Positions 13,087 to 38,484 of a stretch of 64,000 nucleotides of DNA are shown here, piece after piece. The notes under the pieces were generated by a model. The model was given only the letters and a program-made list of their open reading frames with translations, did no database searches and was not told where the DNA came from. A program made the translations under genes and the position numbers. The stretch is from Oscillospiraceae bacterium (GTDB taxonomy: Bacteria > Bacillota > Clostridia > Oscillospirales > Acutalibacteraceae): positions 62,001 to 126,000 of the forward strand of contig SVOH01000001.1 in the NCBI GenBank assembly GCA_015066515.1. The letters are read 5' to 3'. Positions within the stretch are counted from its first letter, which is position 1. Every line of letters begins with the position of its first letter.

Positions 13087-13115
13087 TTGACAAACAATAC
13101 CTATTTGTGTATAAT
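13087..13115 (+). promoter_or_regulatory. Promoter of rplJ-rplL
   Basis: Perfect consensus elements: TTGACA (13087-13092) and TATAAT (13110-13115) with a 17-bp spacer. Confidence 0.88.
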
Positions 13116-13121
13116 GTTTTA

Positions 13122-13259
13122 GCAATCCAAAGACAGTAGGTGGCATTTGCCGTAAGTTTAACGCCTACCGAGGTGAGCGTGAAACGTTTTGTTATAAAGT
13201 TTTCATGTCTACCCTTGTGTCCTTGGGTGGACATTTTTTATTTTCACTCGGAGGTGAAC
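13122..13259 (+). ncRNA. L10-type ribosomal protein leader with attenuator
   Basis: A 140-nt untranslated leader precedes rplJ. The segment GTAGGTGGC...GCCTACCGAGGTG forms a stem (GTAGG/CCTAC) of the kind bound by L10-L12 in Firmicutes leaders. It is followed by a terminator-like hairpin at 13206-13239: TGTCTACCC pairs with GGGTGGACA and TTTTTT follows. This fits autoregulation of rplJL by L10(L12)4 through transcription attenuation, as described for Bacillus. The class is assigned from position and these elements, not from a covariance search. Confidence 0.75.
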
Positions 13260-31856: not shown

Positions 31857-31895
31857 AAAAAAAGAGCAAATCAGCCTTTAATAACTGACTTGCCC
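31857..31895 (-). terminator. Riboswitch-controlled terminator before pflB
   Basis: On the minus strand GGGCAAGTCAG pairs with CTGATTTGCTC over 11 bp (two G-U), followed by seven T. Its 5' arm is part of the ZTP aptamer, so ligand binding should prevent it. Confidence 0.8.
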
Positions 31896-31959
31896 AGACG
31901 GTCGGCATTAAAAATCTTTTACATTCCCTATGCGTAAACTCGCAAAACCCGTCAGTTAT
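31881..31959 (-). ncRNA. ZTP (pfl-motif) riboswitch controlling pflB-pflA
   Basis: The minus-strand leader matches the ZTP aptamer layout. ACTGACGG opens it (consensus ACUGGCG), then a small hairpin TGCGA/ACGCA follows, then AGGGAA (consensus GGGGA), and GCCGACCGTCTGGGC closes it (consensus CCGCCUGGGC). The pseudoknot pair GACGG/CCGUC shows a compensatory change from the consensus GGCG/CGCC. Flanking ATAACTGAC/GTCAGTTAT forms the outer stem, which excludes the terminator. ZTP/ZMP accumulate when 10-formyl-THF is scarce; PFL supplies formate for that pathway, so an ON switch makes sense. Confidence 0.82.
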
Positions 31960-31984
31960 GTAAAAGCATTATACTGTATTAATT

Positions 31985-36956: not shown

Positions 36957-37046
36957 TAGAATACTTTTCCTTTTGTGTAAATTATCAAAAACGGCTCTTA
37001 AATTTTAGTTCTTTATACAAAATAAATAAAAGTTATCAACTTTTTG

Positions 37047-37075
37047 TTGACAAATTGTAGATATTAGCATATAAT
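37047..37075 (+). promoter_or_regulatory. Promoter of the five-repeat RNA
   Basis: Consensus TTGACA (37047-37052), 17-bp spacer, TATAAT (37070-37075); start predicted near 37082. Confidence 0.85.
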
Positions 37076-37081
37076 ATAGAC

Positions 37082-37453
37082 GAAGAGAAAAGAAAGGAGC
37101 GGTAAAACGCTATGAGGGAAACTCCACCAGCAAATTTAAAAAAATAATTTGAAAGGCGTGAGTCCAATGTACAGGTAAACCTGTAAACCCAAAGACTATA
37201 TTTAAGTAAAGGACTGAGTCCAAAGGTTTAAGTAGTTTTCAATTCAAAACTATATTTTAGTAGAGGCGTGAGTCCGAAGGTTTAGTTAATTTTTAACTCA
37301 AAACTATAAATAAGCAAAGGAATGAGTCCGAAAGTTTAGTTAGTTTTATTTTCAAAAACTAAAATATACAGACGGTGAGTCCGATGTACAGTTAAAACTT
37401 AATAAATGAATTATGGCCCCCACAGGTGAAAGATGTGGGGGCTTTCCGTTTTT
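37082..37453 (+). ncRNA. Candidate noncoding RNA built of five ~54-nt repeats
   Basis: From a perfect promoter to a strong terminator there is no gene of normal size. After a 5' hairpin region (AGCG/CGCT inside GGAG/CTCC), the core TGAGTCC recurs at 37159, 37215, 37269, 37323 and 37376. The spacing is 56, 54, 54 and 53 nt, and the core is usually preceded by AAAGG or GAGG. Each core is followed by its own AT-rich hairpin whose sequence differs but whose pairing is kept: ACAGGT/ACCTGT, TAGTTTT/AAAACTA, AGTTAA/TTAACT, TTAGTTTT/AAAACTAA, AGTT/AACT. I recognise no known RNA class. Confidence 0.75.
37416..37453 (+). terminator. Terminator of the five-repeat RNA
   Basis: Perfect 9-bp stem GCCCCCACA/TGTGGGGGC followed by TTTCCGTTTTTA. 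Confidence 0.88.
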
Positions 37454-37473: not shown

Positions 37474-38484
37474 CTATCCATTCCATTCAACATATTCGGC
37501 GTCGTATGACAAAGCGGTAAATTTATCCATAACCGACGAGGGAGCATATATCGTCAGCGTTACATTTCGCTGATACGAATTGGAAAAGGCATAGTTTGCG
37601 ATGGTTACTTTGCCAGACTTAATATATACGCGTGTGAGCTGACGGCAAGACATAAATGCGTTGCTCTTAATCTCCGTAACGTTTGCGGGAATGATTATCT
37701 CGGTAAGCGAATTGCAGTTTGCAAAGGCCTGTTCGTCTATATATTTTAGTGTATCGGGCAAGGTTATGCTTTTTAAATCCTGCTCATAGTAAAAGGCCTG
37801 CAAACCAATACCGATAACTGTTTTACCGTCAATTTGTGAGGGAACTTCATAACTGCCGGTAGCGTTGTAATTTTCAATTCCGGTAATTTCAACCCCGCCG
37901 TCAACTGCTTTTACTTCCCAGGTCGGCTTGGTAGGCTCTTCTTTCTTGCTAGGGGTAGGTGTTGACGAGGCTTGCTCAGAGGAGCTTTCATCTACCCGCT
38001 CACCGTTTGATGAGTTGTCAATTATGGGTGAAGACGGGGGGTCATCGGTTTTTCCGTCATCAGTAGTCGAAGAATTTTCGTTTGTGGTGCTTTCGGTATG
38101 AGCACTATCAAAATCGTTTTTATTTGTATGGGGAGTACTCGCTTCGACCGAATTGTTGTTAAACGTTTGGTTTTCGCCCGATATGTTTTCGCTATTAATT
38201 TCTATGTTTTCCTCCGATGTAGGCGGGTTTAACGAGGATAAAATCATAGTCGAATTTTTGTTGATTGAGGAATGACCTGAAGGAGTATTTTTGCCGCCGT
38301 TAAGTATCAACAGTATTATTGCGCAAGTGAGCAACGCCAATAACGTCCCGATTAAAGCAAATGGCCAATATGGCTTTAGGGTTTTGTTTTTAACTGCGGT
38401 TTTATCGCTCAACTGCCGCATACAGTATAAACAAAACTCGGCATCATCTAAAATTTCGGCCGAGCAATACGGACATTTTTTCAT
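37474..38484 (-). CDS. Membrane-anchored protein with N-terminal zinc ribbon and C-terminal leucine-rich repeats
   Basis: A 336-residue protein in four parts: a cytoplasmic zinc ribbon (CPYCSAEILDDAEFCLYC, residues 4-21), one membrane span (about 40-62), a long Ser/Thr/Asn/Pro-rich linker (65-185), and an extracellular BspA-type LRR region (GLQAFYYEQDLKSITLPDTL, IDEQAFANCNSLTEIIIP, IKSNAFMSCRQLTRVYI). The order suggests signal coupling or adhesion across the membrane; the ligand is unknown. It follows the HTH gene by 6 bp and shares its transcript. A Ser/Thr kinase-like gene lies nearby. Confidence 0.8.
   Translation of the reverse strand: MKKCPYCSAEILDDAEFCLYCMRQLSDKTAVKNKTLKPYWPFALIGTLLALLTCAIILLILNGGKNTPSGHSSINKNSTMILSSLNPPTSEENIEINSENISGENQTFNNNSVEASTPHTNKNDFDSAHTESTTNENSSTTDDGKTDDPPSSPIIDNSSNGERVDESSSEQASSTPTPSKKEEPTKPTWEVKAVDGGVEITGIENYNATGSYEVPSQIDGKTVIGIGLQAFYYEQDLKSITLPDTLKYIDEQAFANCNSLTEIIIPANVTEIKSNAFMSCRQLTRVYIKSGKVTIANYAFSNSYQRNVTLTIYAPSSVMDKFTALSYDAEYVEWNG

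Follow-up and report, generated by a model that had tools for sequence, protein, structure and literature searches.

Sponge RNAs of the CsrB/CsrC/RsmZ type are stand-alone RNAs that carry a repeated core resembling a Shine-Dalgarno (SD) sequence in a variable number of units, and dual-function small RNAs and leader-peptide attenuators are short RNAs with micro-ORFs. Minigenes and two-codon mini-ORFs such as that of axe-txe consist of an SD followed by AUG-x-stop (PMC8708949), while the STAB-SD 5' stabilisers (listed among the references of PMC3997798) have their SD close to the transcript's 5' end. The 64,000-nt stretch of DNA analysed here (the window), from an Oscillospiraceae bacterium, encodes an array RNA that shares these features with each of them and differs from all. 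Its core is not a GGA in a hairpin loop, as in the sponges, no CsrA was found in the genome, and its units carry start-stop frames. Compared with the mini-ORFs, its units stand in tandem in a stand-alone RNA without a downstream cistron; compared with STAB-SD, which one form of the RNA resembles in position, a mini-ORF follows the SD and the SD is repeated inside the RNA. Unlike dual-function small RNAs and attenuators, it has no constant cis target gene and has several start-stop frames. Against Rfam 15 no match to the array RNA reached the gathering score in the window, in 12 loci or in 18 of 59 genus loci, and six more loci gave matches far below gathering alone, some of them on the terminator hairpin; a resemblance to T-boxes (AGGGTG...CCR) was dropped, Rfam listing no T-box at the array. 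A literature search, largely open-access and at record level, found no description of the RNA. The parts (SD, mini-ORF, Pro-Pro micro-ORF) are known, and we know of no family that has them as a stand-alone tandem array, which as an architecture would be new.

Five copies of TGAGTCC, located by motif search of the window, begin at 37159, 37215, 37269, 37323 and 37376, at intervals of 56, 54, 54 and 53 nt; none of 2000 dinucleotide shuffles of the 374-nt transcript contained more than one. The cores lie in a predicted transcript of about 370 nt (37082-37453, + strand), whose 5' start is placed from a sigma-70-type promoter, TTGACA-17-TATAAT at 37047-37075 (+), matching 12 of 12 consensus positions in a promoter scan. 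This promoter is kept across 15 aligned genus loci, which had been chosen with a pattern containing TTGACA. At the other end, sequence reading and folding place a terminator-like hairpin, GCCCCCACA...TGTGGGGGC, with the tail TTTCCGTTTTT (37416-37453, +). The hairpin itself (37416-37442) is GC-rich, its T tract is interrupted, and it is absent from the terminator-scan list; by eye, in the alignment of relatives, its stem is altered on both sides, as CCCCCAC/GTGGGGG, CCCTCGC/GCGAGGG and CTCTCAT/GTGAGAG. Upstream of four of the five cores stands (A/G)AGG, and the fifth has GACGG instead. The original prediction had described a stand-alone RNA gene with TGAGTCC five times at 53-56 nt spacing, usually after (A/G)AGG, bracketed by a perfect promoter and a terminator and matching no known family. 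All of this is borne out, the terminator in spite of its omission by the scan. Its further statement that no normal gene lies here holds for long ORFs and fails otherwise, since the RNA has conserved micro-ORFs. Directly 5' of the -35 box, at 37028-37044, is a palindrome, AAAAGTT-ATC-AACTTTT, with similar sequences in several genus loci by eye; it is possibly an operator or UP element.

To judge from its sequence, each repeat resembles a ribosome-binding site, with (A/G)AGG in most of them, a gap of about 10 nt, and AUG-x-(x)-stop or the same with AAR for AUG. The core is accordingly placed as a putative Shine-Dalgarno-like site at start-codon distance before a start-stop frame, and not as a free motif between hairpins. 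Unit 1 (37151-37178, +) has GAAAGG, then GTG AGT CCA ATG TAC AGG TAA, with its AUG at 37167 and the product MYR*. Unit 2 (37208-37231, +) has AAAGGA, then CTG AGT CCA AAG GTT TAA, AAG replacing AUG; unit 3 (37262-37285, +) has AGAGG, then GTG AGT CCG AAG GTT TAG; and unit 4 (37316-37339, +) has AAAGGA, then ATG AGT CCG AAA GTT TAG, so that AAR stands for AUG in three of the five units (2, 3 and 4). Unit 5 (37371-37395, +) has GACGG, then GTG AGT CCG ATG TAC AGT TAA, with its AUG at 37384 and the product MYS*, and contains an exact GGTGAGTCCRATGTACA. An alignment with five close relatives shows that one unit around unit 3 is missing from them.

A pattern of NTG, three bases, CC, any base, A, A or T, and A or G, which demands no stop, found 172 units (171 distinct) in 59 genus loci; requiring SD-like upstream sequence gives 171 units, 132 with AUG and 39 with AAA or AAG at the AUG position, and 33 further matches lacking the TG were excluded as not units. 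Counting AUG as codon 1, the first in-frame stop is codon 3 or 4 in 103 of 130 distinct AUG-type units, which thus have the mini-ORF layout of an SD, an AUG and, one or two codons later, a stop, a layout that the AAR-type units (39/171) do not have. The other two frames of the same 130 units have 18 and 13 early stops. Shuffling the nine bases after AUG gives a mean of 39.4, and none of 2000 shuffles reached 103; because the loci are related these shuffles overstate the significance, and the difference between the frames is more reliable as evidence. Stops in the 103 units are TAA in 89, TAG in 12 and TGA in 2. Over all the AUG-type units the codon that follows AUG is TAC in 70 and AAG in 31, the remainder being spread over 12 other codons. 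AAR-type units have early stops in the same frame in 32 of 39 and in the +1 frame in 25 of 39. The triplet before AGT, whose TG is fixed by the pattern, is GTG in 154 units, CTG in 6, ATG in 6 and TTG in 5. The distance from (A/G)AGG would fit initiation at the AUG and not at the GUG, the two lying in one frame. Spacing between pattern matches is 45-57 nt in 64 of 113 cases across the 59 loci. Direct reading also finds extra micro-ORFs between the units in L012, L014, L016, L017 and L021, for example MIVRRLAIK* and MKGLRRFIK*; several of these end in Lys-TAA a few bases 5' of the next core.

Pairing with the ribosome was computed with GGAUCACCUCCUUUCU, which we take to be the clostridial 16S tail, the tail itself not being found in the organism's own assembly. 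Against this assumed tail the window units reach -11.5 to -15.8 kcal/mol, where a perfect complement would score -30.1 kcal/mol, and comparison with the core masked shows that TGAGTCC contributes 5-9 kcal/mol. Among 300 letter shuffles the share pairing equally well was 0.3% for unit 1, 2% for unit 2, 3% for unit 5 and about 9% for units 3 and 4.

Upstream of unit 1, ORF reading and comparison of homologues identify a micro-ORF, ORF0 (37112-37147, +), that encodes MRETPPANLKK* and is preceded by AAAGGAG. By script, 46 of the 59 genus loci have a micro-ORF with Pro-Pro; in 31 of these its stop lies 10-12 nt 5' of the core that follows (11 nt in the window). In 13 distinct Pro-Pro copies of ORF0, a set that omits L013 (without Pro-Pro), L016 (without a stop) and L009 (a duplicate), the Pro codons are CCA, CCG or CCT, with a variable third base in both. 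The script found ORF0 continuing into a unit in five loci: four (L178, L179, L192 and L204, three of which look closely related) run on in frame as ...V(S/I)PMK*, and L206 enters the unit in another frame. No Pro-Pro ORF0 was found by script in the remaining 13 of the 59 loci, where reading by eye gave a similar ORF0 starting at TTG in L187 and L188, Gln-Pro for Pro-Pro in L195 and L196, a unit where ORF0 would be in L208, L209, L211, L212, L213, L215 and L217, and neither ORF0 nor a substitute unit in L210 and L214. The ORF0 layout also occurs outside the genus, in two loci of two other families, L230 and L231, with MVREMPPAHT... and MKLEPPEYSKK* (translated by eye); in L230 it again continues in frame into a unit.

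Conservation of the array was followed with blastn and with a sequence-only model, R2, that covers the promoter, ORF0 and unit 1 and was trained on 15 loci of the genus. With the window RNA as query, blastn gave matches in 16 of 60 genomes, own included, and five close relatives in alignment have 4, 4, 4, 4 and 3 units where the window has 5; over the 59 genus loci pattern matches range from 1 to 5 per locus. Unit number among homologues is therefore variable, as a check proposed with the original prediction had asked. R2 matches 60 of 70 genus genomes (a count that includes those used for training), with a single match in 58 of the 60, and 38 of the 39 with completeness of 90% or more and contamination of 5% or less. 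Unit and ORF0 counts cover the 59 loci L159-L217, leaving aside the weak second matches of two genomes and G006, whose locus L020 has MVEPPAYYQK* with two units. Across the order R2 matches 44 of 245 genomes at E<=1e-3, three of them genus members; many of these matches are weak and partial, covering the promoter side alone, and of five loci read, two are real (L230 and L231) and three are false. In another family, loci L029-L031 contain a longer RNA with several units and, in L029, a 20-codon frame, MCLDEPIGQIRMVRAQGSIR*, which is near-identical in L030 and L031. By eye, the gene upstream in L030 is presumably DUF1292-like and the gene downstream in L029 and L031 presumably RqcH/NFACT-like, and a 6S RNA lies near.

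A second, canonical form has one unit at the 5' end and a 3' micro-ORF, MLD(I/N)K...*, that runs into the terminator. The string GGTGAGTCCRATGTACA occurs exactly in 9 of 295 order genomes, the reversed control giving 0, and a search of the named genome collection gives 48 stretches with the motif AGGGTGAGTCCAATGTACA. Most of these belong to MAGs labelled Oscillospiraceae, Clostridia, Bacillota or Firmicutes; others come Lawsonibacter, Ruminococcus and Ruminiclostridium MAGs and from the isolates Flintibacter muris, Oscillibacter valericigenes and Oscillibacter sp. MSJ-31. AGGGTGAGTCCAATGTACA mostly stands, by eye, a few bases 3' of a promoter-like -10 box; L036, L043 and L082 have it as an inner unit of an array of the window form. 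Within 750 nt, 39 of 49 matches are accompanied by another micro-ORF, M(M)LD(I/N)K...* or a close variant, that runs into a terminator. Adding one viral contig to the 49, the stop is the fourth codon in 39 of 50 rows (TAA 31, TGA 5, TAG 3). Thirty distinct 3' frames have 9 or 10 codons including the stop; their codon 2, for which the search pattern admitted solely Leu or ATT-like codons, is TTA in 22, CTG in 5, and CTA, TTG and ATT in 1 each. In codon 4 the second base is variable and the third is always a pyrimidine, a pattern unusual for coding sequence.

A model of the 3' module, R1, built from 36 canonical loci and used at E<=1e-3, matches 37 of the 245 genomes searched in the order, 12 of the 70 in the genus and 16 of the 291 in the class, the own genome being in each count and a few matches being weak. 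In L105, L086 and L102 the 3' module occurs without the 5' unit. The own genome carries both forms, because a full canonical copy, L103 (contig C8:142832-142965), with a 5' unit MFR* and a 3' MLDIKSEQK*, lies about 17 kb past the window end, followed by a gene that we take to be NAD synthetase. The canonical form may also have a conserved central domain, seen with the hairpins CCTCACATATGAGG and GCCGTAATAACGGC in an alignment of 13 loci (A1, among L042-L083), where 11 of 80 predicted pairs have changes on both sides, few of them within those two hairpins. Long-range pairing between the 5' unit and the 3' micro-ORF, in one consensus fold of the canonical form, was set aside: its pairs hardly vary, so the fold proves nothing. 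Locus L050 has two tandem canonical copies, and L064 has two 3' modules on opposite strands. Two exact matches lie in viral contigs (L084 and L085, the latter reading into a longer frame); the phage collection gave no match to the RNA, and a phage origin was rejected.

We assign a probability of roughly 0.4 to the reading in which the array is a stand-alone RNA gene of micro-ORFs that is loaded by ribosomes and acts on, or senses, translation. A strong promoter would drive a short transcript that encodes micro-peptides alone. A ribosome would translate ORF0 and thus be delivered to unit 1, since a stop 11 nt before the first TGAGTCC would leave the terminating ribosome over the unit 1 SD, able to pass on. 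Ribosomes or 30S subunits would bind the SD-like units, make at most a di- or tripeptide, because the stop comes two or three codons after AUG (or AAR), and be released or held; units with an SD and no start would also hold or recycle them. The likeliest effect would be occupancy, in which bound ribosomes shield the RNA, consume initiation capacity or report translation status. Through its early Pro-Pro, ORF0 would respond to EF-P or prolyl-tRNA. Consecutive prolines near the start of a protein cause peptidyl-tRNA drop-off and re-initiation in E. coli, which EF-P relieves; the data concern mostly three prolines, with some proteins having two, as ORF0 has, and in the three-Pro library drop-off was stronger beside polar residues (PMC8934632). 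Short peptidyl-tRNAs commonly drop off (PMC10192219), and a two-codon mini-ORF is reported to raise expression in cis, possibly via mRNA stability (PMC8708949).

In favour of this reading stand the early stops in the AUG frame, the recurrence of a Pro-Pro ORF0 whose stop mostly lies close to the first core, the single match per genome in most of the genus, the variable neighbouring genes, the gain in 16S pairing due to TGAGTCC and the mix of Leu codons in the 3' micro-ORF. Several findings count against ribosome loading, namely the 13 of 59 loci without a Pro-Pro ORF0 by script, the pairing of units 3 and 4, codon 4 of the 3' micro-ORF and the early stops that AAR-type units also have in the +1 frame. 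Since 39 of 171 units have AAA or AAG for AUG, translation of all units cannot account for everything. The presence of the RNA in 60 of 70 genus genomes, almost always once, together with relatives in further families and orders of the same class, implies a job, and annotation missed that job because the frames have 2 to 12 codons. A bolder version, which we consider quite unlikely, sees a class-wide family of gene-less ribosome-loading arrays in which the Pro-Pro micro-ORF gauges EF-P or prolyl-tRNA and the units capture ribosomes, making the RNA both a translation sensor and a brake. Should ribosomes load as the layout suggests, the array would be an RNA directed at translation that has no coding gene; even without the mechanism, it defines an RNA family with no Rfam 15 match.

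The main rival is a sponge for a protein that binds ribosome-binding sites: the units would mimic such a site of target mRNAs and titrate a repressor or other factor, as CsrB does for CsrA. We hold this unlikely as a whole. It would account for a repeated core with variable unit number, for the AAR-type units that keep the core without AUG, and for the conservation across families of TGAGTCC within the spacer between SD and start, which ordinary translation does not need and which counts against ribosome loading. It leaves the in-frame stops and the Pro-Pro ORF unexplained, and presentation of the core in hairpins is unsupported. The likeness to CsrB put forward in the original prediction fails in the features tested: GGA occurs four times in the 374 nt, twice in unit SDs (units 2 and 4) and twice at ORF0, where CsrB has many GGA motifs in hairpin loops, and CsrA (PF02599) was found in none of one own genome, 98% complete, the control being positive in 3 of 14 named genomes. 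Membership in CsrB/CsrC was therefore rejected. A single gene start in the own genome, of a PadR-family gene, carries AGGnnTGAGTCC / GAAAGGGGTGAGTCCAATG; the sequence is changed in both close homologues read (L130 and L131), which argues against the sponge, and its standing as a specific mRNA target that shares the core is probably chance.

The array could instead be a polycistronic mRNA for functional micro-peptides (the Pro-Pro product of ORF0 and, in the canonical form, MLDIKSEQK-type products), with short units that are vestigial or serve regulation. Variation in ORF0 and in the 3' micro-ORF is indeed partly of the coding kind, and both are found again in other families, yet the two- and three-residue unit products are unlikely to act as peptides, and the script's 13 genus loci without a Pro-Pro ORF0 weigh against it further, so that we regard this explanation as decidedly unlikely.

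Very improbable, in our judgement, is a structured non-coding RNA that works through hairpins between the cores, the reading with which the locus was first put forward. It was based on hairpins said to change in sequence while staying paired, and so on selection for RNA structure. Inter-core segments fold no better than dinucleotide shuffles (mean z-score -0.35, with p<0.05 in 2 of 24 segments from 10 loci), and of the 19 pairs named for the hairpins, one shows a two-sided change among five relatives, a result that 95 of 500 shuffles equal. These hairpins of the window form are therefore unsupported, and the evidence offered for structural selection falls with them. The named pairs do stay paired in 79.6% of cells in five relatives, against 31-58% with the partner slid; this favours the pairs and is also expected, because the structure came from one of those sequences. 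The whole transcript folds at z -2.24, a level that 2 of 100 shuffles also reach, and part of this is owed to the terminator.

Micro-ORFs beside a terminator also resemble leader-peptide attenuators, but a cis-acting leader for a neighbouring gene is the least probable explanation of all, given that the next gene in the window (37474-38484) is on the opposite strand, that homologues have no constant downstream gene in the same direction, and that neighbours differ between groups. Crude ORF calls around the 48 named loci gave many clusters of neighbouring genes, common solely within groups of close relatives, and a DUF1292 gene stands upstream of the array in 28 of 59 genus loci. Comparison of loci thus establishes, at the level of sequence, that the RNA is independent of its neighbours. 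The position between a DUF1292 gene and a kinase locus, singled out earlier as of interest, says little, because the neighbouring genes are inconstant in homologues. A 6S RNA (RF00013; 36250-36449, - strand) lies close to the array and divergent from it, and several loci of the genus and of other families likewise have one near the array. Elsewhere in the window are ordinary Rfam matches to an L10 leader (13109-13248, +) and a ZMP/ZTP riboswitch (31885-31969, -).
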